Origin: Leptothrix discophora
GTDB lineage: Bacteria; Pseudomonadota; Gammaproteobacteria; Burkholderiales; Burkholderiaceae_C
Reading direction: 5' to 3'
DNA: 64,000 nucleotides
Assembly (NCBI RefSeq): GCF_030705305.1
Contig: NZ_JAUZEE010000004.1
Location: 1 to 64,000 of the forward strand
This document shows positions 41,297-64,000 of this stretch, in pieces (the stretch's first letter is position 1; each line of letters opens with the position of its first letter). The notes under the pieces were generated by a model. It was not told the DNA's origin. It worked only from the letters and a program-made list of their open reading frames with translations, and did no database searches. Position numbers and translations under genes: made by a program.

Positions 41297-41310
41297 AAGT
41301 GTATACACTT
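41297..41310. promoter_or_regulatory. 14-bp perfect palindrome AAGTGTA-TACACTT, GntR-type operator
   Basis: It lies between the divergent HIU hydrolase and GntR genes, 39 bases before the regulator ATG. TGTATACA centres are typical of FadR/VanR-type GntR sites. It could repress both directions. Confidence 0.7.
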
Positions 41311-41349
41311 GAGCACACACGTCAACCACGAGACCCCGGAAGCCGCCCG

Positions 41350-42189: not shown

Positions 42190-42229
42190 TCGCCACGGCA
42201 CCCCCTCATCCCCGCGACCCCACGCCACC

Positions 42230-43186: not shown

Positions 43187-43199
43187 GACCCGACCCGTC

Positions 43200-44987
43200 A
43201 TGCTGACCCTCGACCACCTCAACGGCCTGTCGCAGGCCGACTTCACGCAGGCGCTGGACGGCACCTACGAGCACTCGCCCTGGATCGCCGAGGCGGCCTG
43301 GGCGCAGCGCCCGTTCGCGACGCTGGCCGCGCTCAAGCATGCGATGGTGACGGTGCTGGCGCAGGCCGGCGTCGACGCCCAGCTGCGGCTGATCCGGGCC
43401 CACCCGGAGCTGGCCGGCAAGGCCATGGTCAGCCAGAGCCTGACGGCCGAGTCCACGAACGAACAGGGCAAGGCCGGCCTGACCGACTGCACGCCGGCCG
43501 AGTTCGCGCACATCCAGCAGCTCAACGCCGACTACAACGCGACGTTCGGCTTCCCCTTCATCCTGGCGGTGCGCGGCCCGCGCGGGCTGGGCCTGAACCG
43601 GCACGAGATCATCGCGACCTTCGAGCGCCGGCTGCGCCACCCGGTCGACGTGGAGCGGGCCGAGGCGCTGCGCAACATCCACCGCATCGCCGAGATCCGC
43701 CTGAACGACAAGTTCGGCGTCGAGCCGGTGCTGGGCAACCTCGTGTGGGACTGGGCCGAGAAGCTGGCGCAGCACAGCGACGTCGAGGGCGCGCTGACCG
43801 TCACCTACCTGACCGACGCGCACCGGGCCTGCGCCCAGCGCCTGTCGCACTGGATGCGCGAGGACTGCGGCTTCGACGAGGTCTCGATCGATGCGGTCGG
43901 CAACGTCGTCGGGGTCTATCACGGCAGCAATCACGGCAGCAATCACGGCAGCGATCCCGGCAGCGATCCGGCCGCGAAGCGCCTGCTGACCGGTAGCCAC
44001 TACGACACCGTGCGCAACGGCGGCAAGTACGACGGCCGGCTCGGCATCCTCGTGCCGATGGCCTGCGTGCGCGAGCTGCACCGCGCCGGTCGCCGCCTGC
44101 CCTTCGGCGTCGAGGTGATCGGCTTCGCCGAGGAGGAAGGCCAGCGCTACAAGGCCACCTTCCTGGGCTCCAGCGCCGTCACCGGCCACTTCGACCCGGG
44201 CTGGCTGGACCAGGCCGACGCCGACGGCATCCCGATGCGCGCGGCCATGCAGCATGCCGGCCTGTGCATCGACGACATCCCGAGGCTGGCGCGCGACCCG
44301 TCGCGCTACCTCGGCTTCGTCGAGGTCCACATCGAGCAGGGCCCGGTGCTCAACGAGCTGGACCTGCCGCTGGGCATCGTGCGCTCGATCAACGGCAGCG
44401 TGCGCTACACCGGCGAGGTCATCGGCATGGCCAGCCATGCCGGCACGACGCCGATGGACCGCCGCCGCGACGCCGCCGTCGCGGTCGCCGAACTGGCGCT
44501 GCACGTCGAGCGACGCGCGGCGGCGGTGCCCGACGTGGTCGGCACCATCGGCATGCTCAACGTGCCGTCCGGCTCGATCAACGTCGTGCCCGGCCGCTGC
44601 GCCTTCAGCCTGGACCTGCGCGCCACCACCAACGCCGCCCGCGACGCGCTGGCCGACGATGTGCGCGCCGAGCTGGCCCGCATCTGCGAACGGCGCGGCC
44701 TGCAGTTCACGCTCGAGGAGACCCTGCGTGCGGCGGCCGCCCCGAGCGCACCCGAATGGCAGGCCCGCTGGGAGGCCGCCGTCGCCCCGCTCGGCCTGCC
44801 GCTGCACCGCATGCCCAGCGGGGCCGGCCATGACGCGATGAAGCTGCACGAGGTGATGCCCCAGGCCATGCTGTTCGTGCGCGGCCTGAACGCCGGCATC
44901 AGCCACAACCCGCTCGAATCGAGCACCAACGACGACATCGAGCTGAGCGTGCGCGCCTTCCAGCACCTGCTGGACCAGCTCGCCTGA
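43200..44987 (+). CDS. OHCU decarboxylase / allantoate amidohydrolase fusion
   Basis: Residues about 1-170 are OHCU decarboxylase: the catalytic His in LIRAHPELAGK, LTAESTNEQGKAGL and the closing GLNRHEIIATFERR. It makes S-allantoin. Residues about 185-595 are an M20-family allantoate amidohydrolase: TGSHYDTVRNGGKYDG with metal His/Asp, FAEEEGQR with metal/catalytic Glu, VEVHIEQGPVL, and a C-terminal GAGHDAM. The fusion joins steps either side of the PuuE reaction. A Ser/Asn/His/Gly microrepeat (GSNHGSNHGSDPGSDP, about residues 242-257) is inserted inside the amidohydrolase part. Location cytoplasmic; probably one operon with puuE and the following deacylase. Confidence 0.92.
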   Translation: MLTLDHLNGLSQADFTQALDGTYEHSPWIAEAAWAQRPFATLAALKHAMVTVLAQAGVDAQLRLIRAHPELAGKAMVSQSLTAESTNEQGKAGLTDCTPAEFAHIQQLNADYNATFGFPFILAVRGPRGLGLNRHEIIATFERRLRHPVDVERAEALRNIHRIAEIRLNDKFGVEPVLGNLVWDWAEKLAQHSDVEGALTVTYLTDAHRACAQRLSHWMREDCGFDEVSIDAVGNVVGVYHGSNHGSNHGSDPGSDPAAKRLLTGSHYDTVRNGGKYDGRLGILVPMACVRELHRAGRRLPFGVEVIGFAEEEGQRYKATFLGSSAVTGHFDPGWLDQADADGIPMRAAMQHAGLCIDDIPRLARDPSRYLGFVEVHIEQGPVLNELDLPLGIVRSINGSVRYTGEVIGMASHAGTTPMDRRRDAAVAVAELALHVERRAAAVPDVVGTIGMLNVPSGSINVVPGRCAFSLDLRATTNAARDALADDVRAELARICERRGLQFTLEETLRAAAAPSAPEWQARWEAAVAPLGLPLHRMPSGAGHDAMKLHEVMPQAMLFVRGLNAGISHNPLESSTNDDIELSVRAFQHLLDQLA

Positions 44988-46338: not shown

Positions 46339-46416
46339 ATGCACCAGGCTGGCGCTTGCGCCGTGTGCATGGTTCTTGCAGCCGTCGGTCGGATCGCTCC
46401 GACCCTCCTGCAAGGA
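46339..46416 (+). promoter_or_regulatory. Structured leader in front of the NMT1-type transporter operon
   Basis: Two hairpins are visible. ATGCAC/GTGCAT encloses GGCG/CGCC (46339-46370). CTTGCAG/CTGCAAG (46375-46381 with 46408-46414) encloses GGTCGGA/TCCGACC (46387-46404). The second outer strand overlaps the Shine-Dalgarno AAGGA (46412-46416), so folding would hide the ribosome site. It does not match any riboswitch class I can name. Confidence 0.45.
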
Positions 46417-46423
46417 CCCCACG

Positions 46424-47538
46424 ATGCCCACGGCCCCGAACGACCGCCCTGACCTCCTGCCGCCGACGCCGCATTCGCCCCGAGCGTCCCGCCGCCGCGC
46501 ACTGGACCTGTCGATCCGCCTGATCTGCTGCCTGGCGACCGGCGCGAGCATGGCCCTGACCGCCTTGCCGGCGCTGGCGCAGGAGACCGCCGTGAAGTTC
46601 CAGCTCGACTGGCGCTTTGAAGGTCCGGCCGCGCTCTTCCTCGTGCCCGCGAGCAAGGGCTACTACAAGGCCGAGAAGCTCGCCGTCAGCGTCGATGCCG
46701 GCAACGGCTCGGGCGGCACCGTCACGCGGGTGGCCTCGGGCGCCTACGACATGGGCTTCGCGGACCTGGCCGCGTTGATGGAGTTCCACGCCAACAACCC
46801 GACGGTGCCCAACAAGCCGGTGGCCGTCATGATGGTCTACAACAACACGCCGGCGGCGGTGCTGGCCCTGAAAAAGAGCGGCATCGGCAAGCCCTCGGAC
46901 CTCAGCGGCAAGAAGCTCGGCGCGCCGGTCTTCGACGCCGGCCGCAAGGCCTGGCCGATCTTCGCCAAGGAGAACAAGGTCAGCAACGTGACCTGGACCG
47001 CGATGGACCCGCCGCTGCGCGAGACCATGCTGGTGCGCGGCGACATCGACGCGATCACCGGCTTCTCCTTCACCTCGCTGCTCAACCTGGAGGCACGCGG
47101 CGTCAAGACCGAGGACATCGTCGTGCTGCCCTACCCGCAGTTCGGCGTGAAGCTCTACGGCAACGCCATCATCGTCGGCGAGGACTTCCTCAAGAAGAAC
47201 CCGGAAGCGGTGAAAGCCTTCCTGCGTGCCTTCACCAAGGGCCTGAAGGACGTCATCGCCGACCCGGCCGCCGCGGTCGCCACGGTCAAGGAACGCGACG
47301 GCATCGTCAATGCCGAGCTGGAGACGCGCCGCCTCAAGCTCGCGCTCGACGCCACCGTGCTGACGCCCGATGCGAAGGCCGAAGGCTTCGGCGAGGTCAA
47401 GGCCCCGCGCCTGGCGCTGATGGCCAGCCAGGTCTCCGACGCCTTCGCGACCAAGGAACGCGTCAACGTCGCCGCGATCTGGAACGGCGGCTTCCTGCCC
47501 AGCGCGGCGGAGCGGGACATCTTCGGGGCGAAGAAGAA

Positions 47539-47542
<4 letters not shown>
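46424..47542 (+). CDS. ABC transporter substrate-binding protein, NMT1/SsuA-like
   Basis: A long basic N-region and a hydrophobic segment (LICCLATGASMALTALPALA) form the signal peptide. The mature part is a type II periplasmic binding fold: VKFQLDWRFEGPAALFLVPA, KGYYKAEKLAVSVDAGNGSG, YDMGFADLAALMEF and KKLGAPVFDAGRKAWP. Members bind pyrimidine precursors, riboflavin, taurine, urea-like or aromatic compounds. The neighbouring purine catabolic genes suggest a ureide or nucleobase ligand. The stop overlaps the ATPase gene start (GTGA). Confidence 0.9.
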
Positions 47543-48347
<805 letters not shown>

Positions 48348-48351
<4 letters not shown>

Positions 48352-49130
48352 CGATGTCCACGTCGCGCGCCCGCCGGCTCGAACAGGCCTCGCCCTGGAT
48401 CCTGCTCGTGGCCACCGTGCTGATCTGGCAGCTGCTGTGCAGCGGGCTGGGCGTCTCCGAGTTCATCTTCCCCAGCCCCTGGTCGATCGCGCAGGCGCTG
48501 GGCGAGCACGGCAGGACCATCGCCGGCCATGCCTGGCGCACCTTCTGGGTGACGATGGCGGGCTTCGGCCTGTCCATCGTCGTGGGCGTGCTGCTGGGCT
48601 TCCTGATCGGCAGCTCGCGGGTCGCCTACACCGCCGTCTACCCGCTGATGACGGCCTTCAACGCCCTGCCCAAGGCGGCCTTCGTGCCCATCCTGGTGGT
48701 GTGGTTCGGCATCGGCGTCGGCCCGGCGGTGCTGACCGCCTTCCTGATCAGCTTCTTCCCCATCATGGTCAACATCGCCACCGGCCTGGCGACGCTGGAG
48801 CCCGAGCTGGAGGACGTGCTGCGCGTGCTCGGCGCGCGGCGCTGGGACGTGCTGGTCAAGGTCGGCCTGCCGCGTTCGATGCCCTACTTCTACGGCTCGC
48901 TCAAGGTCGCGATCACGCTGGCCTTCGTCGGCACCACGGTTTCGGAGATGACCGCTGCCAACGAGGGCATCGGCTACCTGCTCATCAGCGCCGGCAGCTC
49001 GATGCAGATGGGCCTGGCCTTCGCCGGCCTGGTGGTGGTCGGGGCGATGGCGATGGCGATGTACGAGCTGTTCTCGGTGGTCGAGCGGCGCACGACCGGC
49101 TGGGCGCACCGGGGTTCGCAGGGGCACTGA
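48348..49130 (+). CDS. ABC transporter permease, NitT/TauT type
   Basis: Six membrane segments over 260 aa with the EAA loop LRVLGARRWDVLVKVGLPRSMP, which contacts the ATPase. It completes the three-gene importer begun by the NMT1-like binding protein. The ATG overlaps the ATPase stop. No hairpin terminator is obvious before the convergent glycosyltransferase. Confidence 0.93.
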
Positions 49131-52980: not shown

Positions 52981-54825
52981 TCAGGCCTTGATGGAGACGG
53001 TCGACGTCAGGTTCGGGGTCGGCTTCGCGCCGGGGTTCGGATGGCTGGCTTGCGCGGCCGCGTGCTGTGCCGCCTGTTGTGCCGCCTGTTGTGCCGCTTG
53101 CTGTGCCGCCTGCTGTGCAGCGTGTTGCGCCGCATGGGCGGCGCTGCCAGCCGCAGCAGCGGCCATCGGCCGGTTCAGCGGCACGACCTGGCCGGGTGCG
53201 CCGCCGCGCATGGCGTGGAGGACCTCCTCGGCGGTGCCGAAGTGCAGCTGGCGGCCGCCGTCGATCACCAGCATCTTGTTGACGTGCTGGGTCAGCGTCT
53301 GGCGGTGCGTCACGACGATCACGGTGGCCTGGCCCTGCAGGCGCTTGAGGGTCTCGGCCAGCGCGAGTTCGCCGGCGCCGTCGAGGTTGGCGTTGGGCTC
53401 GTCCAGCACGATCAGCTTGGGGTTGCCGTAGAGCGCGCGGGCCAGCGCGATGCGCTGGCGCTGGCCGGGCGACAGCAGCGCGGCGTTCGGGTCGACGCGG
53501 GTGTCGTAGCCGTCGGGCAGCGCGAGGATCAGCTCGTGCACGCCGGCCCGCTGGGCCGCCGCGACGACCTGGGCCGAATCGACCGGGCCCATGCGGGCGA
53601 TGTTGTCGGCGACGGTGCCGGCAAACAGTTCGACGTCCTGCGGCATGTAGCCGATGTGCGGGCCAATCTGCTCGCGGGTCCAGCGCGACAGGTCAACGCC
53701 GTCGAGCCGGACCTGGCCCTGGGTCGGCGCCCACAGGCCGATCAGCAGGCGCACCAGCGTGCTCTTGCCGGCGCCGCTGGGGCCGATGACGGCCATCGAC
53801 TCGCCGGCCTCCAGGCGCAGCTGCACGCCGCCGATCAGCACGCGGTCGCTGTGGGGCGGGCGGTAGACCAGGCCGGCCACGGTCAGCAGGCCGGTCGGCG
53901 CGGGCAGCGGCATCTGCGGCCGGCGGTTCAGCGCCTCGGTCATCAGCGGGTCGAGGCGACGCCAGGCGAGCCGGCCTTCGGCCAGGATCTTCCAGCTGCC
54001 GACGATCTGCTCGACCGGCTGCAGCGCGCGGCCCAGCAGCATCGACGAGGCGATCATCACGCCGGGCGTGGCCTGGCCGTCGAGCACCAGCCAGGCGCCC
54101 AGCGCGGTCATCAGGATCTGCGTGACCTGGCGCGAGATGCGGGTGATCGCCGCCATCGAGACCGAGCGGCGTGCCACCGGGTCCTGCGTGGCGGCCAGTT
54201 CGGCACTCAGGCCGTTCCAGCGCCCGACCAGCGCGTCGGCCATGCCCATGGCCTGGGCGACCTCGGCGTTGACCATGGCTTGATCCAGGAAGCGCTGGCT
54301 CGCGCCGGCTTCCTTCTGCAGCTTCTCGATCGCCGACTGCGTCATGCGGTCGTTGAGCCAGGCCAGGCCCAGCATCAGCGCGGCGCTGAAAAAGGCCGCC
54401 ACGCCCAGCCAGACGTTGGCCACCGCGATGACGCCGATGAAGACCACCGCCCAGGGCGCGTCCATGATCGCCACCAGGCCCTGCGAGGAGAACAGCGCGC
54501 GCAGCCGGCCGACGTCGCGCAGCGCCTCGTTGGTGAAGGCGCCCTGGCGCCTGGCGGCCACGGCCAGCGACAGCCGGGCGATCTCCGGCGCCATGGCGTC
54601 GTTGATGATGTTGCCCAGCACGCCCTGCAGGCGGCCACGCAGGTAGTCCAGCACGCCGGCCAGCGCCAGCGCGATGCTCACGCCGATCACCAGCATCAGC
54701 AGGGTCTCGCGGCTGCCGCTGCTGAGCACCCGGTCGAAGACCTGCAGGCTGAAGATGGCCGGGAACAGCCACATCAGGTTGATCGCCGCCGAGAAGCCGG
54801 CGATGGTGCGGAGCAGGGATTTCAT
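52981..54825 (-). CDS. Type I secretion ABC transporter (PrtD-like) with Ala/Gln repeat tail
   Basis: Membrane domain about 5-290, starting with LLRTIAGFSAAINLMWLFPA, without a C39 domain, as in protease/lipase exporters of the PrtD/AprD family. Nucleotide-binding domain: GPSGAGKST, YMPQDVELF, LSPGQRQRIALARAL (signature with Pro), LIVLDEPNANLD and VVTHRQ. The C-terminal ~60 residues are low-complexity AAQQ and AAQH units, absent from the usual family. No substrate gene is adjacent. ATG 54825 matches the family start; the upstream open frame has no support. Confidence 0.92.
   Translation of the reverse strand: MKSLLRTIAGFSAAINLMWLFPAIFSLQVFDRVLSSGSRETLLMLVIGVSIALALAGVLDYLRGRLQGVLGNIINDAMAPEIARLSLAVAARRQGAFTNEALRDVGRLRALFSSQGLVAIMDAPWAVVFIGVIAVANVWLGVAAFFSAALMLGLAWLNDRMTQSAIEKLQKEAGASQRFLDQAMVNAEVAQAMGMADALVGRWNGLSAELAATQDPVARRSVSMAAITRISRQVTQILMTALGAWLVLDGQATPGVMIASSMLLGRALQPVEQIVGSWKILAEGRLAWRRLDPLMTEALNRRPQMPLPAPTGLLTVAGLVYRPPHSDRVLIGGVQLRLEAGESMAVIGPSGAGKSTLVRLLIGLWAPTQGQVRLDGVDLSRWTREQIGPHIGYMPQDVELFAGTVADNIARMGPVDSAQVVAAAQRAGVHELILALPDGYDTRVDPNAALLSPGQRQRIALARALYGNPKLIVLDEPNANLDGAGELALAETLKRLQGQATVIVVTHRQTLTQHVNKMLVIDGGRQLHFGTAEEVLHAMRGGAPGQVVPLNRPMAAAAAGSAAHAAQHAAQQAAQQAAQQAAQQAAQHAAAQASHPNPGAKPTPNLTSTVSIKA
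53052..53130 (-). repeat. 12-bp tandem repeats encoding AAQQ
   Basis: Five to six imperfect copies of a 12-base unit (TGTGCCGCCTGT-like on the + strand) encode the Ala-Ala-Gln-Gln tail of the ABC exporter. Slippage could change tail length. Confidence 0.7.
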
Positions 54826-55079
54826 GCGTGTGGGATCGGGCGTTTCGACGTCTTGCGCGCCAGTCCGGCACGCACGGGCGTCAGTGTGCGTCCATCGGAA
54901 CCGTTCCCGATCGCCCGGCCCCGGCCGGGTCGGCCACTTTGTCTCGCTGGACGGGAGTTCGTGCAGGTCAACGCCCCTGCGAGCCTGGGGAACGGTCTCG
55001 CGGCGACAACAACAGGGGCGTGCGGGCATGCCTCCCGCGAGGTCCGCTGGCACGCGACCTGCGAGGCCGACCCACACGT

Positions 55080-55135
55080 CGAGTAGAAGCGTTCACCGCC
55101 GCACCAGCCCCGTGCGCGCGGCCGGAAATTGCTCG
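55080..55135 (+). ncRNA. Xanthine-I riboswitch (NMT1 motif), copy 1
   Basis: The conserved internal-loop strands TAGAAGCGTTCA (55084-55095) and GGAAATTGCTC (55124-55134) are both present. P1 is CGAG/CTCG (55080-55083 with 55132-55135). P2 is CCGC plus CGCAC pairing with GTGCG and GCGG, with one bulged C. This is the NMT1-motif architecture reported to bind xanthine and related oxidised purines. It precedes the Rieske oxygenase gene by 43 bases; a hairpin abutting the Shine-Dalgarno follows, so control of translation is likely. Confidence 0.88.
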
Positions 55136-55150
55136 GTTCCCCTTCACGAC

Positions 55151-55173
55151 CTGGTGCGCCGCACCAGAAGGAG
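55151..55173 (+). promoter_or_regulatory. Expression platform of riboswitch 1: hairpin abutting the ribosome site
   Basis: CTGGTGC/GCACCAG with a GCC loop (55151-55167) is followed directly by AAGGAG (55168-55173), 5 bases before the ATG at 55179. CCTTC at 55144-55148 can pair with GAAGG at 55168-55172 area and extend the stem over the ribosome site. Confidence 0.6.
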
Positions 55174-55178
55174 ATCCC

Positions 55179-56210
55179 ATGCTGACCGCGCAACAAGCCG
55201 TCTTCCGCCGCTACTGGCACGCCGTGATGCCGCTCGCCGACCTGGCCGACGGCCCCCGGCCCTTCACGCTGATGGGCGAGCAGATCGTGCTGTTCCTCGA
55301 TGCGCACGGCCAGCCGGCCGCGCTGAAGGACCGCTGCTGCCACCGCACCGCGAAGCTGTCGCTGGGCTGGTGCAAGGACGGCTCGATCCAGTGCGGCTAC
55401 CACGGCTGGCGCTACGACCGGACCGGCCGCGTGATCGAGATCCCGCAGTACCCGGCCGATCGGGCCATCCCGGCCGACTACTGCACGCCGGCCTGGCGCT
55501 GCGTGGCACGGCATGGCTATGCCTGGGTCGCGCTGGTCGGGCCGGACGAGGAGCCGCTCGCCCCGATCCCCGAGATCCCCGAGTTCGGCGCGCCGGGCTG
55601 GCGCACCATCTTCCAGTTCCACGAGACCTGGGCCTGCAGCCCGCTGCGGGCGCTCGAGAACAGCTTCGACAACTCGCACTTCAGCTTCGTGCACCGCGCC
55701 ACCTTCGGCGTGGCCGCGCAGCCCGCGCCCAGCCGCTACGAGCTGGTGCCGACCGCGCACGGCTTCCAGGCCGAGACGGTGATCCAGGCCGTCAACCCGC
55801 CGGCCTTCCAGCGCATCAGCGGCGTCGCCGAGCCGGTCACGACGCGCCACATGCGCAACGCCTACTACCTGCCCTTCTCGCGCCGGCTGGACATCGAGTA
55901 CCCCGGCGGCGTGCGCCACGTGATCATCAACTGCTTCACGCCCATCGACGACGGCCACATCCAGCTGTGCCAATGGCTGTTCCGCAACGACACCGAGCAA
56001 GACTGCCCGGCGCAGCTGCTGATCGACTTCGATGCCGAGATCACGCGCGAGGACAAGGCCATCCTGGAGTCGACCGACCCGGACGCGCTGGTCGACACGC
56101 GCCGGCGCGGCGTCGAGTTCTCGATGGACAGCGACCGGCCCGGCATGCTGATCCGCAAGCACCTGATGGAACTGCTGGCGCGCCACGGCGAAGCCGAGGT
56201 GCACCGCTGA
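55179..56210 (+). CDS. Rieske-type ring-hydroxylating/demethylating oxygenase, large subunit
   Basis: N-terminal Rieske domain with ligands C53-x-H55 and C72-x-x-H75 around a [2Fe-2S] cluster. The catalytic domain has the mononuclear-iron motif D164-x2-H167-x4-H172 (DNSHFSFVH). At 343 aa it resembles PobA/VanA/NdmA-type single-component oxygenases, which hydroxylate rings or remove N- or O-methyl groups using a separate reductase. A xanthine-I riboswitch directly upstream predicts a substrate linked to purines, for example xanthine, urate or a methylxanthine. No reductase with a plant-type ferredoxin is adjacent. Strong AAGGAG before the ATG. Confidence 0.9.
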   Translation: MLTAQQAVFRRYWHAVMPLADLADGPRPFTLMGEQIVLFLDAHGQPAALKDRCCHRTAKLSLGWCKDGSIQCGYHGWRYDRTGRVIEIPQYPADRAIPADYCTPAWRCVARHGYAWVALVGPDEEPLAPIPEIPEFGAPGWRTIFQFHETWACSPLRALENSFDNSHFSFVHRATFGVAAQPAPSRYELVPTAHGFQAETVIQAVNPPAFQRISGVAEPVTTRHMRNAYYLPFSRRLDIEYPGGVRHVIINCFTPIDDGHIQLCQWLFRNDTEQDCPAQLLIDFDAEITREDKAILESTDPDALVDTRRRGVEFSMDSDRPGMLIRKHLMELLARHGEAEVHR

Positions 56211-56315
56211 GGCGGGCCGCCGGGACACGTCGCGGTGCATCGTGCCTGCCGGCGGTGCATCCGGCGTCCGGCTGCCACGCGGCACGGCTGGCACGGCCCG
56301 TGCATTGATCCACCG

Positions 56316-56366
56316 CAAGAGTAGAAGCGTTCAGCCACCGGTACCGGTGGCAGGAAATTGCTCTTG
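56316..56366 (+). ncRNA. Xanthine-I riboswitch (NMT1 motif), copy 2
   Basis: It has the same core as copy 1: TAGAAGCGTTCA (56322-56333) and GGAAATTGCTC (56353-56363). P1 is a perfect 6-bp CAAGAG/CTCTTG (56316-56321 with 56361-56366). P2 is GCCACCG/CGGTGGC capped by GTAC (56334-56351). It lies between the Rieske gene and the next gene. P1 and P2 differ in sequence from copy 1 while the core is unchanged, good covariation support. Confidence 0.9.
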
Positions 56367-56373
56367 ACCAGCC

Positions 56374-56400
56374 GGTGTGGCTCATCGAATGAGCCACACC
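56374..56400 (+). promoter_or_regulatory. 12-bp perfect hairpin, expression platform of riboswitch 2
   Basis: GGTGTGGCTCAT pairs with ATGAGCCACACC around CGA, 7 bases after the aptamer. No T-run follows, so it is not a normal intrinsic terminator; it may act through pausing, Rho or RNA stability. It lies about 100 bases before the GTG start of the next gene. Confidence 0.65.
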
Positions 56401-56497
56401 TCGTCGTGGTGCAGCACCTGGCGACCTCGTCGCGGCCGTGGCCGCGCAGGACCGTCGGTGCCGCATCGGCCTGATCAAGAAACGTCGCACGCCTGCC

Positions 56498-57109
56498 GTG
56501 AAGATCCTGCTGCTCTGGTGCCACCCCGACCCGCAAAGCTACAGCGCCGCGCTGCGCCAGGCTGCTGCGGACGCGCTGCGCGAAGCCGGTCATGAGCTGC
56601 GCGAGATCGATCTCTACGCGCTGCATGCCCAGGGCGGCTTCGATCCGGTGCTGAGCCCGGACGAGAAGCGCAGCTACCTGGCCGACACCGACCGCAACAT
56701 CGCCGCGGTGCAGCCGCATGTCGACGCGCTGCGGTGGGCCGAGGGCTGGGTGGTCGTCTACCCGACCTGGATGTACGGCCCGCCGGCCTTGCTCAAGGGC
56801 TGGCTGGACCGGGTCTTCCTGCCCGGCGTGAGCTTCGGCCTGGGCGGCTCGCGGCACCGGCCCATCGTCGGCGCGCTGAAGAACATCCGCTGGTTCTGCG
56901 GCATCACCACCTCGGGCTCGCCCTGGTGGTGGCTGCGCTGGATCGGCGACCCCGGCCGTCGGCTGTTCCTGCGCGGCCTCAAGCCGCTGTACGCACGCGG
57001 CTGCCGCACCGACTGGCTGCAGCTGCACGCGATGAACTACGCCACCGAGCGCGACCGCACGCGCTTCCTGGGTCGCGTGCGGCGCACCTTGTCCAGCCGG
57101 GCAGCCTGA
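56498..57109 (+). CDS. NAD(P)H dehydrogenase/flavodoxin-fold FMN oxidoreductase (MdaB/KefF-like)
   Basis: Flavodoxin-like fold: KILLLWCHPDPQSYSAALRQ (phosphate loop region), ELREIDLYALHAQGGFDPVL, WVVVYPTWMYGPPALLKGWL (flavin-site strand) and a DRVFLPG continuation. Such proteins reduce quinones or flavins with NAD(P)H. Here it might pass electrons to the oxygenases of this locus, an inference. GTG 56498 is the family start; no clear ribosome site. The gene lies behind riboswitch 2. Confidence 0.85.
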   Translation: MKILLLWCHPDPQSYSAALRQAAADALREAGHELREIDLYALHAQGGFDPVLSPDEKRSYLADTDRNIAAVQPHVDALRWAEGWVVVYPTWMYGPPALLKGWLDRVFLPGVSFGLGGSRHRPIVGALKNIRWFCGITTSGSPWWWLRWIGDPGRRLFLRGLKPLYARGCRTDWLQLHAMNYATERDRTRFLGRVRRTLSSRAA

Positions 57110-57120
57110 AGGGAATGCCG

Positions 57121-57594
57121 ATGAACACGGGCTCATCCTCGAACGACATCGCGCAGCCGCTGGCCCGCTACAGCGCGTTCCGGCGCTGCGGCGACTGGCT
57201 GCTGCTGTCGGGCGTGATCGCGGTCGATCCGGCCGCCAGCCGCATCGTGCGCGGCTACGACGACATCCCACCCGAGGCCCAGGCCCTGCTGGGGCGCAGC
57301 CACGAGTTCTCGACCGACTGGCGCGAGGGCCCGATCCTGGCGCAGAGCTGGTACGTGCTGGACCGCATCCGCGCGACGGTCGAGAGCGCCGGTGCGCGCA
57401 TGGACCAGGTCGTCAAGCTGGTGCAGTACTTCCGCGACCTGGACCATTTCCCGCACTACAGCCGGGTGCGCCGGCTGTTCTTTCCCGGCCTGCCGCCGGC
57501 GTCCACCGTGGTCGAGGTCAGCGGCATGCTGCCCTCGCCGGACATCCTCGTCGAGGTCGAGGCCACCGTGTGGCTCGGCACGCCCGATGCATGA
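57121..57594 (+). CDS. RidA/YjgF-YER057c-UK114 family protein
   Basis: Trimeric chorismate-mutase-like fold. LARYSAFRRCGDWLLLSGVI at the start and GARMDQVVKLVQYFRDLDHF, then RRLFFPGLPPASTVVEVSGM, match the family with its substrate-site Arg region (SRVRRLF). RidA proteins hydrolyse reactive enamine/imine intermediates; relatives act in pyrimidine and ureide breakdown (RutC-like). At 157 aa it is longer than classic RidA (~128). AAGGGA stands before the ATG. It is the second gene after riboswitch 2. Confidence 0.88.
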   Translation: MNTGSSSNDIAQPLARYSAFRRCGDWLLLSGVIAVDPAASRIVRGYDDIPPEAQALLGRSHEFSTDWREGPILAQSWYVLDRIRATVESAGARMDQVVKLVQYFRDLDHFPHYSRVRRLFFPGLPPASTVVEVSGMLPSPDILVEVEATVWLGTPDA

Positions 57595-57614
57595 ACCCCG
57601 TCAGGAGTGACCCG

Positions 57615-58421
57615 ATGCTGCACGGCCCCATCCCCGCCCGTCGCTTCCTGCCCTACCTGAGCTGGACGGTCATCGAGGCCCTGCCCGACCGCGCCAACAC
57701 GGTGATCGTGCTGGCCACCGGCACCATCGAGCAGCATGGCCCGCACCTGCCCTGCGCGGTCGATGCGCTGATCGCCACCGGCGTGGTCGGCGCCGCGCTG
57801 GCACGGCTGGACGACGCGGTGCCGGCCTACGCGCTGCCGCCGCTGACCTATGGCAAGTCCGATGAACACACGCATTTCCCCGGCACGCTGACGACCAGCG
57901 GCGCGACGCTGCAGGCGCTGGTCGAGGACATCGGCGAGTCGGTCTGGCGGGCGGGCTTCCGCAAGCTGCTGATCGTCAACGGCCACGGCGGCCAGCCTCA
58001 GGTGATGGAGATGGCCGCCCGCGCGCTGCGGCTGCGCCACGGCGACTTCGTGGTCGTGCCGCACTTCACCTGGCGGGTGCCGCACGTGGCCGGCCAGTTC
58101 CTGTCCGAGCGCGAACGCCGCCTGGCCATGCATGCCGGCCATGCCGAGACCGCCCTGGTCATGGCGCTGGCGCCCGAGACCGTGCACATGGACCGCGCGG
58201 TGGCGCACTACCCGCCGGAGTTCCCGCGCTCGCTGTCGCCGGATGGCCGGCCCGCCGCCGCCTGGGTCGCGCGCGACTTCGGTCCCAGCGGCGTCATCGG
58301 CGATCCGCACCCGGCCACGCGCGAACAGGGCCTGGCCATCCTCGATTCGCTGGCCGAGAGCTGGGCCGCCGCCATCACCGACCTGCACCGGCTGGACTGG
58401 CCGGCGCGCGAGCCCGCGTGA
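57615..58421 (+). CDS. Creatininase-family amidohydrolase
   Basis: Metal-dependent cyclic-amide hydrolase fold: the ATGTIEQHGPHLP motif with metal Glu and His, then CAVDALIA with metal Asp, FPGTLT, LLIVNGHGGQPQ and the later HAGHAETAL segment with Glu. Relatives hydrolyse creatinine, formamides of riboflavin or F420 biosynthesis, or cyclic ureides. In this locus a ring-opened or cyclic ureide from oxidised purine is plausible. Start ATG 57615 has AGGAG 7 bases upstream; ATG 57591 overlaps the RidA stop but lacks this. 268 aa. Confidence 0.87.
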   Translation: MLHGPIPARRFLPYLSWTVIEALPDRANTVIVLATGTIEQHGPHLPCAVDALIATGVVGAALARLDDAVPAYALPPLTYGKSDEHTHFPGTLTTSGATLQALVEDIGESVWRAGFRKLLIVNGHGGQPQVMEMAARALRLRHGDFVVVPHFTWRVPHVAGQFLSERERRLAMHAGHAETALVMALAPETVHMDRAVAHYPPEFPRSLSPDGRPAAAWVARDFGPSGVIGDPHPATREQGLAILDSLAESWAAAITDLHRLDWPAREPA

Positions 58422-58504
58422 TGCCGCGCGCCGGCCTGCGTGCATCCGCCGCGTCCACCGCGCCAGACGTCTTCTCACCCCAACCTCAACCCCGGAGCCT
58501 CGCC

Positions 58505-59533
58505 ATGCCCATGCCCATGTCCATGCCCACGCAGACCCGTTCGCAGCGCACCCTCGGCCGACTCGCGCTGATCGGCGCGGCGGCCCTCGCCGCCACCTTC
58601 GCCACGCACGCGCAGGCGCAGGAGAAGTTCACCTACCTGACCAACTGGTATGCCCAGGCCGAGCACGGCGGCTTCTACCAGGCACTGGCGACCGGCCTCT
58701 ACAAGAAGGCCGGCCTGGACGTGACCATCAAGATGGGCGGCCCGCAGGTCAACGGCCTGCAGCTGATCGCGGCCGGTGCGGCCGAGTGCTACATGGGCTA
58801 CGACACGCAGACCATGAAGGCCCGCGAGCAGGGCATCCCGGCGGTCACCGTGGCGGCCTCGTTCCAGAAGGACCCGCAGGTGCTGCTGGCCCATCCGCAC
58901 GTCAAGAAGCTGGAGGACCTCAAGGGCAAGACCGTGCTGATCGCCTCGGCCTCCTACTCGACCTTCTGGCCCTGGCTGAAGTCGACCTACGGCTACACCG
59001 ACGACATGGCCAAGCCCTACACCTTCAACGTCCAGCCCTTCATGGCCGACAAGGAGATCGCGCAGCAGGGCTACCTCTCCAGCGAGCCCTTCAAGATCGA
59101 GAAGGAAGGCAAGTTCAAGCCCAGCGTCTTCCTGCTGTCGGACTTCGGCTGGCCCCCGTACTCGACCTCGGTGGTCTGCATGGAGAAGACGGTCAAGGAG
59201 CGCAAGGCCGCCGTGGCCGCCTTCGTCAAGGCGACGATGGAAGGCTGGAAGAGCTACCTCACCGGTGACCCGTCGCCGGCCAATGCGCTGATCAAGAAGG
59301 ACAACCCGAACATGACCGACGACGTCATCGCCAACGGCATCGCCAAGATGAAGGAGACCGGCATGGTCACCGGCGGCGATGCGGCCAAGCTGGGCATCGG
59401 CATCATGACCGACGAGCGCATGAAGAAGACCTTCGACATGATGGTTGCCAACAAGCTGCTCGACGCCGCCAAGGTCGACCTCCGCACGGTCTACACGACC
59501 GAGTTCGTCAAGGACCTGAAGATCATGCCCTGA
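58505..59533 (+). CDS. NMT1-type ABC transporter substrate-binding protein
   Basis: A signal peptide (LGRLALIGAAALAATFATHA) is followed by an NMT1/SsuA periplasmic fold: FTYLTNWYAQAEHGGFYQAL, GLYKKAGLDVTIKMGGPQ, AAECYMGYDTQTMKAREQG, KLEDLKGKTVLIASAS. This is the protein family after which the NMT1 riboswitch motif was named, so a xanthine- or urate-like ligand is likely. It belongs to the same run as the oxygenases and ABC subunits. 342 aa. Confidence 0.92.
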   Translation: MPMPMSMPTQTRSQRTLGRLALIGAAALAATFATHAQAQEKFTYLTNWYAQAEHGGFYQALATGLYKKAGLDVTIKMGGPQVNGLQLIAAGAAECYMGYDTQTMKAREQGIPAVTVAASFQKDPQVLLAHPHVKKLEDLKGKTVLIASASYSTFWPWLKSTYGYTDDMAKPYTFNVQPFMADKEIAQQGYLSSEPFKIEKEGKFKPSVFLLSDFGWPPYSTSVVCMEKTVKERKAAVAAFVKATMEGWKSYLTGDPSPANALIKKDNPNMTDDVIANGIAKMKETGMVTGGDAAKLGIGIMTDERMKKTFDMMVANKLLDAAKVDLRTVYTTEFVKDLKIMP

Positions 59534-59609
59534 GGTCGTCATGCCCTACCAGCCTGGGCGCCTGCGACCTCCACGCGACCCCGCTCGCCCAGGCCATCCG
59601 GAGAACCGC

Positions 59610-60584
59610 ATGCAAGCGAACCTGCCCGTCATCGACCTCGCACCCAGCTTCGGCACCGACCCGGCGGGCGCGCGCGACGTGGCCCGCCAGATCGACGCGG
59701 CCTGCCGCCGCCACGGCTTCTTCTACGTCGTCGGCCATGGCGTGCCGCTGGCGCTGATCAGCCACCTGTTCATGGTCAACCGGCGTTACTTCGAGCTGCC
59801 TGAGGACATCAAGAACCGGTGCCACATCGAACGCTCCGGCGGCCTCCAGCGCGGCTACGACCCGATCGGCTGGCAGGCGCTGGAGTCCGGCCGGCCGGCC
59901 GACCTGAAGGAGAGCTTCTACCTCGGCGCCGAGCGCGGACCGGACGATGCGCTGGTGCGCGCCGGCACGCCCAACCACGGCCCCAACCAGTGGCCCGACG
60001 AGGCCCATGCACCGGGCTTCCGCCTGGCCTGCGAGACCTATGCCGCCGCGCTGGAGCGCCTGGGCCGCCACCTGATGGGCCTGATCGCGCTGGGCCTGGG
60101 CCTGCCGCGTGGCCACTTCGAGCCCTTCCTGCAGGACCCCATGCCCATCCTGCGGCTGCTGCACTACCCGCCGCAGCAGGCCAGCACGCTGGACGACCAG
60201 ATCGGCTCGGGCGCGCACACCGACTGGGGCGGCATCACGCTGCTCGCGCAGGACGATGCCGGCGGGCTGCAGGTGCGCGACGAGCTGGGCCGCTGGCTGG
60301 ACGCCCGGCCGATCGAGGGCAGCTTCGTCGTCAACCTCGGCGACCTGATGCAGCGCTGGACCAACGACCGCTACCGCTCCACGCTGCACCGCGTGGTGAA
60401 CGCGCAAAGCGGCCGCGACCGGCACTCGATCGCCTACTTCTTCGACATCGACTACCACGCCCGCGTCGAGGTGCTGCCGACCTGCTGCAGCGCCGACAAC
60501 CCGGCCCGCCACGCCCCGATCACCGCCGGCGAGCACATCGTCGAGATGTATCGCCGCACCACGCTCACGGAGAGCACGACATGA
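59610..60584 (+). CDS. 2-oxoglutarate/Fe(II)-dependent oxygenase, isopenicillin N synthase family
   Basis: Double-stranded beta-helix oxygenase with the full iron triad H203-x-D205 (HTDWG) and H260 (STLHRVV), and the 2-oxoglutarate pair R271-x-S273 (RHSIAYFF). The N-terminal DIOX_N part begins LPVIDLAPSF and contains RHGFFYVVGHGVP. Bacterial members hydroxylate or demethylate small molecules. It sits inside an NMT1-type importer operon between binding protein and ATPase, so it likely oxidises the imported compound. 324 aa; its stop overlaps the ATPase ATG. Confidence 0.9.
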   Translation: MQANLPVIDLAPSFGTDPAGARDVARQIDAACRRHGFFYVVGHGVPLALISHLFMVNRRYFELPEDIKNRCHIERSGGLQRGYDPIGWQALESGRPADLKESFYLGAERGPDDALVRAGTPNHGPNQWPDEAHAPGFRLACETYAAALERLGRHLMGLIALGLGLPRGHFEPFLQDPMPILRLLHYPPQQASTLDDQIGSGAHTDWGGITLLAQDDAGGLQVRDELGRWLDARPIEGSFVVNLGDLMQRWTNDRYRSTLHRVVNAQSGRDRHSIAYFFDIDYHARVEVLPTCCSADNPARHAPITAGEHIVEMYRRTTLTESTT

Positions 60585-61402
60585 CCGACCTTGCGGCGGA
60601 CCGCGCGCCCGCCATCGACATCCTGTCCGCCGAGCAGGTCTACCCCAACGGCACGCGCGCGCTGCTGCCGGTGGACCTGTCGATCCGTGACGGCGAGTTC
60701 GTCACGCTGCTGGGCCCGTCGGGCTGCGGCAAGAGCACGCTGCTGAAGATGATCGCCGGCCTGCTGCAGCCCACCGATGGCCGCATCCAGCTGTGGCACC
60801 GGCCGGTCGAGCAGCTCGCCAGCGTGGGCAAGCGCCTGGCCTTCGTGTTCCAGGAGGCCACGCTGATGCCCTGGACCACCGTGGCACGCAACGTCCGCCT
60901 GCCGCTGGACCTGCAAGGCATGAAGCCGGCCGAGGCCGATCCGAAGGTGGCTCAGGCGCTGAGCCTGGTCGGGCTGGAGAAGTTCGCCGGCCAGCGCCCA
61001 CGCGAGCTGTCCGGCGGCATGCAGATGCGGGTCTCGATCGCCCGCGGCCTGGTCACCGAGCCGCAGCTGCTGCTGATGGACGAGCCCTTCGGCGCGCTCG
61101 ACGAGATCACCCGCAACCGGCTGGACGGCGACCTGCTCGAACTCTGGCAGCGCCAGAAGCTCACGGTCGTGTTCGTGACCCACTCGATCCACGAGGCGGT
61201 CTTCCTGTCCAGCCGCGTGGTGGTGATGGCGGCCCGGCCGGGCCGGGTGGTCGAGCAGGTCGAGATCGACCAGCCCTACCCGCGCGGCCCCGAATGGCGC
61301 GTCAGCCAGCGCTACGCGCAGATCGCGGCCCACCTGCAGGACAGCCTGCTCAAGGCCAGCCAGGACGAGGACGGCCTTGTCGCCATCGGAGCCCGCACAT
61401 GA
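60581..61402 (+). CDS. ABC transporter ATPase, NitT/TauT type
   Basis: Contains GPSGCGKST (Walker A), FQEATLMPWTT (Q-loop), LSGGMQMRVSIARG (signature), LLLMDEPFGALD (Walker B) and FVTHSIHE (His switch). The ATG overlaps the oxygenase stop and the end overlaps the permease ATG. 273 aa. Confidence 0.94.
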   Translation: MTDLAADRAPAIDILSAEQVYPNGTRALLPVDLSIRDGEFVTLLGPSGCGKSTLLKMIAGLLQPTDGRIQLWHRPVEQLASVGKRLAFVFQEATLMPWTTVARNVRLPLDLQGMKPAEADPKVAQALSLVGLEKFAGQRPRELSGGMQMRVSIARGLVTEPQLLLMDEPFGALDEITRNRLDGDLLELWQRQKLTVVFVTHSIHEAVFLSSRVVVMAARPGRVVEQVEIDQPYPRGPEWRVSQRYAQIAAHLQDSLLKASQDEDGLVAIGART

Positions 61403-62316
61403 ACACCGCCACCGCCCATGTCGACATGAAGGGACTCGGCACGGCCGAGCCGCCGGCCGCGCCGATCCGCACCACCGGCTTCGTCGCCGCGCCGAAGCGG
61501 CGCCAGCGGCCGGCCCGCCGCACGCCCTGGCTGGCCCTGCCGGCGGTGCAGCGTGCGGTGCTGCCGCTGCTGGTCGCGGCGGTGCTGCTGGGCCTCTGGC
61601 AGGCCTGGGTCGTGATGGCCGACGTGCCGGCTTACCTGGTGCCCGCGCCGACCCGCATCGCCGCCACGCTGGTCGAGGACTTCGCGTTGCTGACCGGCGC
61701 GCTGTGGACGACGCTGAAGATCACGCTGCTGGCCTTCCTGGCCTCGACCGTGGTCGGGGTCGCGGTGGCCTTCCTGTTCGTGCAGAGCCGCTGGATCGAG
61801 ACGGCGCTGTTCCCCTACGCGGTGCTGCTGCAGGTCACGCCCATCGTCGCGATCGCGCCGCTGATCATCATCTGGGTCAAGGACCCGACCGCCTCGCTGG
61901 TGATCTGCGCGACGCTGGTGGCGCTGTTCCCGGTCATTGCCAACACCACGCTGGGCCTGCGCAGCGTCAACCCCGGCCTGGCGGCCTATTTCCAGCTCAA
62001 CCGCGCGACCCGCTGGCAGACGCTGGTGCGGCTGCGCATCCCGAGCGCACTGCCGTATTTCTTCGCCGGCCTGCGCATCAGCGCCGGGCTGGCGCTGATC
62101 GGCGCGGTGGTGGCCGAGTTCGTCGCCGGCACCGGCGGCACCGGCACCGGCCTGGCCTACCAGATCCTGCAATCGGGCTACCAGCTCGCCATCCCGCGCA
62201 TGTTCGCGGCGCTGTTCCTGATCAGCGTGACCGGCGTGCTGCTGTTCGTCGCGCTGGCGCTGCTGACGCGCGCGGTGCTGGGCGGCTGGCACGAGAGCGA
62301 GCAGGGGCAGGCATGA
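61399..62316 (+). CDS. ABC transporter permease, NitT/TauT type
   Basis: A 50-residue cytoplasmic N-tail rich in Arg/Pro is followed by six membrane segments (first VLPLLVAAVLLGLWQAWVVM). The EAA region is YFQLNRATRWQTLVRLRIPS, ending in ALPYFFAGLRIS. It completes the second NMT1-type importer. It overlaps the amidohydrolase ATG by four bases, linking uptake to deamination. Confidence 0.93.
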   Translation: MNTATAHVDMKGLGTAEPPAAPIRTTGFVAAPKRRQRPARRTPWLALPAVQRAVLPLLVAAVLLGLWQAWVVMADVPAYLVPAPTRIAATLVEDFALLTGALWTTLKITLLAFLASTVVGVAVAFLFVQSRWIETALFPYAVLLQVTPIVAIAPLIIIWVKDPTASLVICATLVALFPVIANTTLGLRSVNPGLAAYFQLNRATRWQTLVRLRIPSALPYFFAGLRISAGLALIGAVVAEFVAGTGGTGTGLAYQILQSGYQLAIPRMFAALFLISVTGVLLFVALALLTRAVLGGWHESEQGQA

Positions 62317-63698
62317 ATGCGGCCAACGACCTGTTGATCACCGGCGCGGCGGCGGTCTGGACCGGCCTGCGCGGGGCGGGCGCCCGGCTCGAAGGCGGGC
62401 TGGACATCCGGATCCGCGACGGCCGCATCGCCGCCACCGGGCAGCTCGCGCCCGAGCCCGGCGAGACGGTGCTGGATGCACGCGGCGGCGTCGTCATGCC
62501 GGGCTGGGTCAACACGCATCACCACCTGTTCCAGAGCCTGCTCAAGGGCATCCCCGCCGGCCTGGACCTGGACCTGATGGGCTGGCTCAGCGCGGTGCCG
62601 GTGCGCTGGCGGCGCGGCTTCGATCAGGAGCGCACGCTGCGACTGGCGGCCCGCATCGGCCTGGTCGAGCTGCTGCTGTCGGGCTGCACCACCGTGTCGG
62701 ACCACCAGTACCACCTGTGGCCCGGCATGCCCTGGGACCCGAGCGCGGCGGTGTTCGACGAAGCCGAGCGGCTGGGCATGCGCCTGGTGCTGGCGCGTGG
62801 TGGCCAGACCGTCAGCCGCCTGGTCGACACCACGCCGTCGCCGCAGGTGCAGCCCGAGACGCTGGACCAGCTGCTGGACGGCCTGGCGCGCGACGTGCAA
62901 CGCTTCCATGACCCGGCGCCGGACGCGATGCGGCGCGTGGTCTGCGCGCCGACCACGCCGACCTGGTCGGTGCTGCCCGACGAGCTGGACGTCATCGCCC
63001 GCGCGGCCCGCGAGCTGGGCGTGCGGCTGCACAGCCACCTCTCGGAGACGGTCGACTACGTGCGCTACTGCCGCGAGGTGCACGGCTGCACGCCGCTCGA
63101 ATTCGTCGAGCGCCACGGCTGGGTCGGGCCGGACGTCTGGTACGCGCACATGGTCCACCTCAGCCCGGCCGAGGTGCGGCGCTGCGCCGAGACCGGCACC
63201 GGCATCGCCCATTGCCCGCAGAGCAACGGCCGGCTCGGCTCCGGCGTCGCGCCGCTGGTGGCCGCGCTGGCCGCTGGCGTGCCGGTCTCGCTGGCGGTCG
63301 ACGGCGCGGCCTCCAACGAGGCGGCCGACATGCTCAGCGAGGCCCATGCCTGCTGGCTGATCCACCGCGCGCTGCACGGCGCGGCGGCGATGCCGGTGGC
63401 CGACGTCATCCACGTCGGGACGGCCGGCGGCGCGCGCGTGCTGGGGCTGGACGCGGTCGGCACGCTGCAGCCCGGACAGGCCGCCGACCTGGTCATCTAC
63501 GACCTCGACGAGCCGGCCCACTTCGGCCTGCACGACCCGGCGGTCGCGCCGGTCGTCAGCGGCCGCGGCCGGGCCCGCGCGGTGCTGGTCGGCGGCCGGC
63601 GGGTGGTCGAGGACGGCGCCATCCCCGGCCTGGACCTGGCCGAGCTGCGCGCGGACGCGGCCGCCGAGGTCGCGGCGCTGAAGGCCCGGCTGGCCTGA
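62313..63698 (+). CDS. Amidohydrolase, 8-oxoguanine deaminase / AtzB-like
   Basis: Amidohydrolase-superfamily deaminase: metal His pair in NTHHHLFQS (about residues 67-72), VRLHSHLSET (metal His, Glu), YAHMVHLSP and the metal Asp in SLAVDGAASNE. The pattern GWVNTHHHLFQSLLKG, with SGCTTVSDHQYH, fits 8-oxoguanine deaminase and hydroxydechloroatrazine ethylaminohydrolase. 8-oxoguanine deaminase yields urate, which would fit purine salvage or breakdown here. 461 aa. It is the last gene before the FAD-linked oxidase. Confidence 0.86.
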   Translation: MNAANDLLITGAAAVWTGLRGAGARLEGGLDIRIRDGRIAATGQLAPEPGETVLDARGGVVMPGWVNTHHHLFQSLLKGIPAGLDLDLMGWLSAVPVRWRRGFDQERTLRLAARIGLVELLLSGCTTVSDHQYHLWPGMPWDPSAAVFDEAERLGMRLVLARGGQTVSRLVDTTPSPQVQPETLDQLLDGLARDVQRFHDPAPDAMRRVVCAPTTPTWSVLPDELDVIARAARELGVRLHSHLSETVDYVRYCREVHGCTPLEFVERHGWVGPDVWYAHMVHLSPAEVRRCAETGTGIAHCPQSNGRLGSGVAPLVAALAAGVPVSLAVDGAASNEAADMLSEAHACWLIHRALHGAAAMPVADVIHVGTAGGARVLGLDAVGTLQPGQAADLVIYDLDEPAHFGLHDPAVAPVVSGRGRARAVLVGGRRVVEDGAIPGLDLAELRADAAAEVAALKARLA

Positions 63699-63758
63699 CG
63701 TCCAGCCGCTGCAGCACACCCTGCCCCACACCCGAGCCACCTCCTGAGGCATCCCCCG

Positions 63759-64000
63759 ATGAACGAGCTTTCCTCCCCGCTGCCGGCCGCGCTGGCCCAG
63801 GTCATCGCCGAGACCCCTGGCATCGACTGGGTCACCGACCCCGGCCGGCGCGAGCGCCTGTCGCGCGACTTCGCCTGGTTCAGCCCAGTGCTGGCGCGCG
63901 AGCTGGCCGGCAAGTCCGCCGAGGCGGTCGCGCGGCCGACCGACGAGGCCGGCGTGGTCGCGGTCGTCGCCGCCTGCGCCCGCCACGGCGTGGCGCTGAC
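63759..64000 (+). CDS. FAD-linked oxidase (GlcD-like), N-terminal part, cut by window
   Basis: Only about 80 residues are visible. IDWVTDPGRRERLSRDFAWF followed by AVARPTDEAGVVAVVAACAR and HGVALT is the start of a PCMH-type FAD-binding domain, as in glycolate/D-lactate/cytokinin oxidases. It continues beyond the window. GAGG lies about 10 bases before the ATG. It follows the amidohydrolase by 60 bases and is likely in the same transcript. Confidence 0.82.
   Translation, partial: MNELSSPLPAALAQVIAETPGIDWVTDPGRRERLSRDFAWFSPVLARELAGKSAEAVARPTDEAGVVAVVAACARHGVAL

Follow-up and report, generated by a model that had tools for sequence, protein, structure and literature searches.

The first 64,000 nucleotides (nt) of contig NZ_JAUZEE010000004.1 of Leptothrix discophora (assembly GCF_030705305.1; hereafter the window) carry, near their end, two xanthine riboswitches and a gene run (55179-65201) which encodes an NMT1-type ABC importer, a Rieske oxygenase, a 2-oxoglutarate (2OG)/Fe(II) oxygenase and an amidohydrolase of the NCBIfam family PRK12393. 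What is new here is that sequence comparison places this amidohydrolase in the isoxanthopterin deaminase clade, which opens the possibility of a pterin route for the operon. We rate the chance that the operon serves nitrogen scavenging from a pterin, isoxanthopterin being the likeliest, as approaching even but falling somewhat short of it. The computed basis of this reading comprises the riboswitches, the gene families and gene overlaps, the clade and signature of the deaminase, and linkage in multiple lineages; the ligand of the riboswitch and its OFF direction are taken from the literature. The structure 2PAJ reportedly belongs to an assayed isoxanthopterin deaminase, the pathway reportedly comes from McNutt's work on Alcaligenes, and the imported substrate and which gene performs which later step are inferred.

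The deaminase is the principal witness. It scores 664.8 bits against PRK12393 (cut-off 543), a model named merely 'amidohydrolase family protein', and among solved structures it is closest to 2PAJ (486 bits; 56% local identity, 247/440), ahead of 3HPA (308 bits; 44%, 176/402) and 7WW2 (282 bits; 41%, 163/402); a fold search with 413 matches at E ≤ 0.001 also ranks 2PAJ first. In the PDB, 2PAJ is titled as a Sargasso Sea amidohydrolase; it is reportedly the isoxanthopterin deaminase assayed by Hall et al. in 2010. The 8-oxoguanine deaminases of PRK08203 (3HPA type; isocytosine deaminase Vcz, 7WW2) belong to the same amidohydrolase superfamily, but the window enzyme stays under their cut-off (417.1 bits against 532), and carries Thr-Thr in place of Cys-Ser; the genome has a separate PRK08203 gene, beside its xanthine permease and PuuD. 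An 8-oxoguanine deaminase identity is thus rejected by score, tree and signature, and the label 8-oxoguanine-deaminase-like, given in a preliminary description of the window, has to be withdrawn in favor of PRK12393. A guanine deaminase identity fares no better (TIGR02967, 122.1 bits; cut-off 375.4).

An IQ-TREE phylogeny was built from 56 rows, of which 55 are distinct (the window gene is present twice and 2PAJ once; one further row, interrupted by a stop, was excluded). In it, a PRK12393/2PAJ side of 40 rows is split from an 8-oxoguanine deaminase side of 16 rows with support of 100/100; one long row on the latter side, L153, drew a warning from the tree tool. The window enzyme has Thr214-Thr215, 2PAJ has Thr-Thr as well, and the other rows of the clade keep Thr214 in 36 of 37 cases and Thr215 in 37 of 37, whereas the 8-oxoguanine deaminase side has Cys (16/16) and Ser (16/16) at these positions. 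Two conserved threonines were reportedly given a role in pterin binding by Hall et al. in 2010. A relative on a Paracoccaceae plasmid, scoring 553.3 bits against the PRK12393 cut-off of 543, is annotated 'Isoxanthopterin deaminase'. Since the window deaminase groups with 2PAJ, the reported isoxanthopterin deaminase, an ordinary purine is probably not what it acts on. According to a 2018 paper (PMC6186785), 8-oxoguanine deaminases have a cysteine in the active site; the work of Hall et al. (2010) is cited in PMC5270733 and PMC11121863.

The deaminase gene stands near the end of the following run:

55076-55139, + strand: xanthine riboswitch aptamer 1 (RF03054, 42.4 bits, E 5e-6), 39 nt 5' of the Rieske gene

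55179-56210, + strand: Rieske non-haem iron oxygenase (Pfam Rieske and VanA_C)

56314-56368, + strand: xanthine riboswitch aptamer 2 (RF03054, 58.4 bits, E 2e-10), 129 nt 5' of the reductase gene

56498-57109, + strand: flavodoxin-fold NAD(P)H reductase (Pfam Flavodoxin_2, 96.7 bits)

57121-57594, + strand: RidA-family protein (Pfam PF01042, 59.1 bits; under the NCBIfam Rid cut-off)

57615-58421, + strand: creatininase-family hydrolase (Pfam PF02633, 239 bits; EQHGPHL and NGHGG motifs)

58505-59533, + strand: NMT1/THI5-type substrate-binding protein of the importer (Pfam NMT1, 99.8 bits)

59610-60584, + strand: 2OG/Fe(II) oxygenase (Pfam DIOX_N and 2OG-FeII_Oxy)

60581-61402, + strand: ABC importer ATPase (Pfam ABC_tran), 4-nt overlap with the 2OG gene

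61399-62316, + strand: ABC importer permease (Pfam BPD_transp_1), 4-nt overlap with the ATPase gene

62313-63698, + strand: PRK12393 amidohydrolase, predicted isoxanthopterin/pterin deaminase (664.8 bits, cut-off 543), 4-nt overlap with the permease gene

63759 to contig position 65201, past the window end, + strand: FAD-linked oxidase (FAD_binding_4; L003:260-1702, Pfam 78.7 bits)

With 4-nt overlaps joining each of them to the next, the 2OG, ATPase, permease and deaminase genes are probably co-translated. Several related loci, such as L036, L068 and L106, likewise place an FAD-linked oxidase gene behind that of the deaminase. Pfam and NCBIfam matches agree with the order of genes given in the preliminary description, from the Rieske oxygenase through the reductase, RidA, hydrolase, importer, 2OG enzyme and amidohydrolase to the FAD oxidase; its creatininase-like hydrolase keeps the family assignment, while creatininase proper is rejected (TIGR04448 equivalog, 105.9 bits; cut-off 235). 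On these gene calls the locus seems equipped for the uptake and oxidation of a purine-like ring compound, and the preliminary interpretation is supported in that part. About 0.6 kb 3' of the FAD oxidase gene lies ureD, a urease accessory gene (L003:2282-3139, contig 65781-66638).

The 2OG enzyme and the binding protein have features of their own. In the former, H203, D205, H260 and R271, i.e., the HxD...H motif and the 2OG arginine, are invariant in 16/16 aligned rows including the window, and thymine dioxygenase (155.6 bits) is among its relatives of known structure. The model of the latter (pLDDT 84.5) has thiamin-, aminopyrimidine- and Thi5-type proteins as its top folds, in keeping with an N-heterocycle as ligand.

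Rfam cmscan, run on the whole window, returned only two matches over gathering, both RF03054 (NMT1/xanthine; gathering 36 bits), so the two NMT1-motif aptamers that the preliminary description saw flanking the Rieske gene are genuine members of the class by this measure. They are the sole RF03054 matches in the 4.65-Mb genome, none of 14 control genomes has a match, and both aptamers contain the core strings GAGUAGAAGCGUUCA and GGAAAUUGCUC found in the construct whose crystal structure with xanthine is known. In leader 1, folding predicted with the aptamer in place joins the Shine-Dalgarno region to an upstream CCUUC, which would suit translational control, though the stability of this fold is no better than that of shuffles (z -0.7; 41/200 shuffles as stable). 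Leader 2 folds with a z-score of -4.8 against shuffles, and directly after aptamer 2 a strong hairpin (56374-56400, GGUGUGGCUCAU-CGA-AUGAGCCACACC), without a T (U) run, is kept in Sphaerotilus mobilis.

The RNA class and its gene associates have been described (Yu and Breaker, 2020; PMC7373994). Measurements on other members of the class show that the riboswitch turns genes OFF and binds xanthine at ~3.7 μM and urate at ~25 μM, leaving singly methylated xanthines and urates unbound; in the crystal structure, solvent reaches xanthine at C8 alone (PMC8266621), and the words 'pterin' and 'lumazine' are absent from the main text of that paper. The published associates (pcbC/DIOX_N, NMT1, tauA, Rieske-type hcaE and PRK12393) show that the gene list as such is not new. 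The published regulons share with the window the RNA class and its core as well as the families of the NMT1/tauA importer, the pcbC/DIOX_N oxygenase, the Rieske enzyme and PRK12393, and in Hydrogenophaga intermedia S1, the reporter strain of that study, opposed riboswitches adjoin a Rieske gene that shares 79-80% identity with that of the window (L035). The difference is one of interpretation: Yu and Breaker read the gene set as purine oxidation and remark that the sensor controls no genes degrading oxidised purines, with applications 'not readily apparent', whereas the deaminase of the window falls in the isoxanthopterin deaminase clade and suggests a possible pterin route. Among the matches listed from the open-licence literature, none joins the xanthine riboswitch with a pterin and a Rieske enzyme; among those on isoxanthopterin, deaminase and riboswitch, 'isoxanthopterin' occurs only in the chemicals list of Yu and Breaker, and the texts consulted on isoxanthopterin deaminase yielded no riboswitch or operon context. 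Within the open-licence literature searched, the gene set is known and its pathway is not in print.

McNutt's Alcaligenes work is said to have traced isoxanthopterin through 7-hydroxylumazine, tetrahydroxypteridine and xanthine-8-carboxylate to xanthine. In the window operon, the NMT1-type importer would take up isoxanthopterin, and the PRK12393 enzyme would strip its 2-amino group to give a pteridine-2,4-dione (violapterin, i.e., 7-hydroxylumazine). Ring hydroxylation to tetrahydroxypteridine would fall to one of the oxygenases; the 2OG enzyme is the likeliest, as its gene overlaps those of the importer. Contraction of the tetrahydroxypteridine ring to xanthine-8-carboxylate would be the orphan activity EC 5.5.1.3. 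The proposed candidate for it is the creatininase-like hydrolase, possibly aided by RidA: creatininase cleaves a cyclic amide, and a relative might open the dioxopyrazine ring. Decarboxylation would then yield xanthine, to be passed on via the ordinary xanthine dehydrogenase, PuuD and allantoin genes of the genome, and high xanthine (or urate) would bind both leaders and shut translation off as end-product feedback. With xanthine as the end product, an OFF riboswitch would be ordinary feedback. This full sequence of import, deamination, hydroxylation and ring contraction to xanthine, with the riboswitch as end-product sensor, is a tentative scheme and, on balance, a doubtful one.

If it is true, a riboswitch that shuts genes which lie upstream of xanthine and are unneeded by ordinary purine catabolism would be explained, the puzzle left by Yu and Breaker would be resolved, and a pathway of 1960s biochemistry would acquire genes. 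The operon would also be the place to seek a gene for an orphan activity, beginning with that of the creatininase-like protein; a tabulation of validated orphan activities from 2007 includes EC 5.5.1.3 and ranks it 'difficult' (PMC1940265). According to a review, violapterin is the product of isoxanthopterin deaminase; pterins serve as insect pigments and possible nitrogen stores and, to judge from the title of one paper, also form crystals in crustacean eyes.

The linkage of riboswitch and deaminase extends beyond Leptothrix. Two genomes of the same order encode deaminases 90% and 83% identical to 2PAJ in riboswitch-headed operons ordered riboswitch, binding protein, Rieske, ATPase, permease, deaminase. 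Across 300 genomes of the order, PRK12393 exceeds its cut-off in 9/14 genomes with a riboswitch match (E ≤ 0.001) and in 8/286 without one (Fisher p 9e-10, kinship ignored); counting riboswitches over gathering only, the figures are 6/10 and 11/290 (p 2e-6, kinship ignored). In five of the nine co-occurring genomes the two lie within ~7 kb of each other (the riboswitch of one, G242, is below gathering), and in the remaining four on different contigs. Where an 8-oxoguanine-deaminase-type gene is present (29 genomes), the riboswitch is found in 8/10 genomes with PRK12393 and in 2/19 without it (p 4e-4).

Plasmids carry the association outside the order. From 21 plasmid records with a match, six loci were fetched, and in four of them a riboswitch over gathering adjoins genes for a binding protein, PRK12393 and a 2OG enzyme, adjacent or divergent:

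Klebsiella pneumoniae plasmid locus: riboswitch at 63.4 bits

Pantoea plasmid locus: two divergent riboswitches over gathering

Paracoccaceae bacterium and Qingshengfaniella loci (both alphaproteobacterial, one of them with the protein annotated 'Isoxanthopterin deaminase'): riboswitch over gathering, PRK12393 and 2OG enzyme

The core common to these four records (binding protein, deaminase, 2OG oxygenase) fits the first steps of the McNutt route. In the Klebsiella record the neighborhood further includes creatininase, RidA and FAD oxidase genes, a PDR/VanB reductase, and one more importer set and amidohydrolase.

A survey centered on the Rieske gene took the best 80 of 215 similarity candidates, with the riboswitch detected by our own pattern rather than Rfam and within the fetched stretches, 18/80 of which are shorter than 15 kb. 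The pattern occurs within 300 nt upstream in 63/80 loci and, divergently, within 1.2 kb in 47/80; the fetched stretches contain a PRK12393-type gene in 16/80 loci and a ureD-like gene in 50/80.

Several observations weigh against the pterin reading. The window enzyme belongs to a 25-row subclade and 2PAJ to a separate one of nine rows; with this separation and 56% identity the substrate may differ, and the window enzyme is best called a family member. The nearest solved relatives of the Rieske enzyme act on methylxanthines or saxitoxin-type compounds, none on pterins, and 64/80 Rieske loci are without a PRK12393 gene in the fetched stretch (18 of all 80 stretches being short, as said). Genes of the 8-oxoguanine-deaminase type are enriched too, in 10/14 riboswitch genomes, so part of the co-occurrence reflects general purine catabolism. 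Among 369 genomes of the class, four have the riboswitch, two have PRK12393 over cut-off and one, the window's own, has both; with riboswitch matches in 4/369 genomes, the class-wide co-occurrence test is uninformative. The riboswitch is not obligatory for PRK12393/Rieske loci: the Burkholderia arboris and Cupriavidus campinensis plasmid loci (2/6) have none within 9 kb, and 11 loci with Rieske and PRK12393 genes have none nearby. As 10 of the 11 genomes lack any RF03054 match, the riboswitch is a regulatory layer that comes and goes. Finally, Yu and Breaker bought isoxanthopterine for binding tests; the main text consulted gives no result for it and states that most analogues were rejected (PMC7373994).

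The Rieske enzyme points toward the main rival, the salvage of modified guanine, in which a guanine that RNA turnover releases in methylated or other modified form would be imported, demethylated or hydroxylated by the Rieske enzyme, and relieved of its (methyl)amino group by the deaminase to give xanthine, which would shut the switch. The Rieske protein carries the CxH..CxxH and ENxxDxxHxxxxH motifs, and NdmA is its best match among solved structures (phmmer, 101 bits), followed by SxtDIOX (98.7), SxtT (96.1) and NdmB (87.7). NdmA has the same Fe-binding motifs, but the match is only ~100 bits and the riboswitch class binds no methylxanthines (PMC7373994). A related amidohydrolase group includes N2,N2-dimethylguanine hydrolases that make xanthine (PMC13054789), and in a Variovorax locus (L053) a divergent riboswitch heads genes for an NMT1 protein and a CDA-fold deaminase. 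Against this salvage stands the deaminase itself, which falls on the 2PAJ side of the tree, with Thr at the position of the Cys of 8-oxoguanine deaminases. The enzyme of Hall et al. 2010, 2PAJ, was reportedly inactive on the purines tested. The dimethylguanine hydrolase, for its part, has C213 among its key residues (CQNN: C213, Q214, N217, N165; PMC13054789), although which position of the window enzyme matches it is a guess. We regard modified-guanine salvage as rather unlikely. CDA-fold (TadA-like) deaminase genes near riboswitches were seen in Variovorax (L053:8103-9658) and Hydrogenophaga (L051:11313-11810); the nearest solved relatives of the Variovorax protein are a CMP/dCMP deaminase-like protein and TadA.

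The ordinary purine enzymes of the genome bear on two further explanations. Elsewhere in the genome, XdhB (1242.5 bits; cut-off 849.5), XdhA (576.5; 467), guanine deaminase PRK09228 (540.3; 351), xanthine permease (508.9; 414), 8-oxoguanine deaminase PRK08203 (724.6; 532) and a PuuD-type urate oxidase (Urate_ox_N, 430.3; 26.9) all exceed their cut-offs, and within the window there are hydroxyisourate hydrolase (120.7; 87) and a fusion protein that joins an OHCU-decarboxylase domain (176.9; 96) to an allantoate-hydrolase-like part, the whole-fusion model staying below cut-off (972.5 of 1087). By these matches the standard guanine-to-allantoin route looks complete, and the locus must therefore add something. 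Yu and Breaker's general purine oxidation, with HpxDE-like oxygenases and deaminases acting ahead of xanthine/urate on hypoxanthine, guanine or 8-oxoguanine and the riboswitch preventing overproduction, has in its favor that it is published for the same gene families, with ligand and OFF direction measured (PMC7373994); here it would make the locus redundant with the guanine, 8-oxoguanine and xanthine enzymes above, and the deaminase lies under both the 8-oxoguanine and the guanine deaminase cut-offs. We judge it unlikely for this locus. Klebsiella HpxDE, compared by description rather than sequence, likewise employs a Rieske oxygenase in purine and nitrogen catabolism (PMC7373994), whereas the annotated neighbors of the window Rieske gene include no PDR/VanB-type reductase.

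More remote is the original proposal that an oxygenase of the locus replaces xanthine dehydrogenase or urate oxidase, which started from the fact that neither gene was seen in the 64-kb window; the best matches of the genome are indeed on other contigs. The genome-wide search for the two enzymes found XdhA, XdhB and Urate_ox_N over cut-off, so the standard step thought to be missing is present and its absence is rejected; PuuD exceeds its cut-off in 13/13 and XdhB in 11/13 other riboswitch genomes, which makes replacement highly improbable. The same counts render the suggested link of the locus to the urate/allantoin genes plausible. In the eight genomes with PRK12393 and no riboswitch match, PuuD is present in 5/8 and XdhB in 6/8. 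The PRK08203 8-oxoguanine deaminase, xanthine permease and PuuD genes of Leptothrix are clustered (L125:6021-10176), a control for the different deaminase of the locus.

Other features of the window lie farther upstream. A GntR/FCD regulator (41299-42189) is encoded on the strand opposite to the hydroxyisourate hydrolase gene, and between the latter and the OHCU fusion (42206-43264) either strand has long open reading frames, for which Pfam and NCBIfam gave no match at the thresholds applied. A second NMT1-type importer (46376-49130; binding protein, ATPase and permease), which may take up a ureide, follows the OHCU/allantoate-hydrolase-like fusion and an M20 peptidase and is without a riboswitch match. 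Just before the first aptamer, a type I secretion ATPase/permease of the PrtD type (52981-54876) bears a run of AAQQ repeats at its C-terminus.

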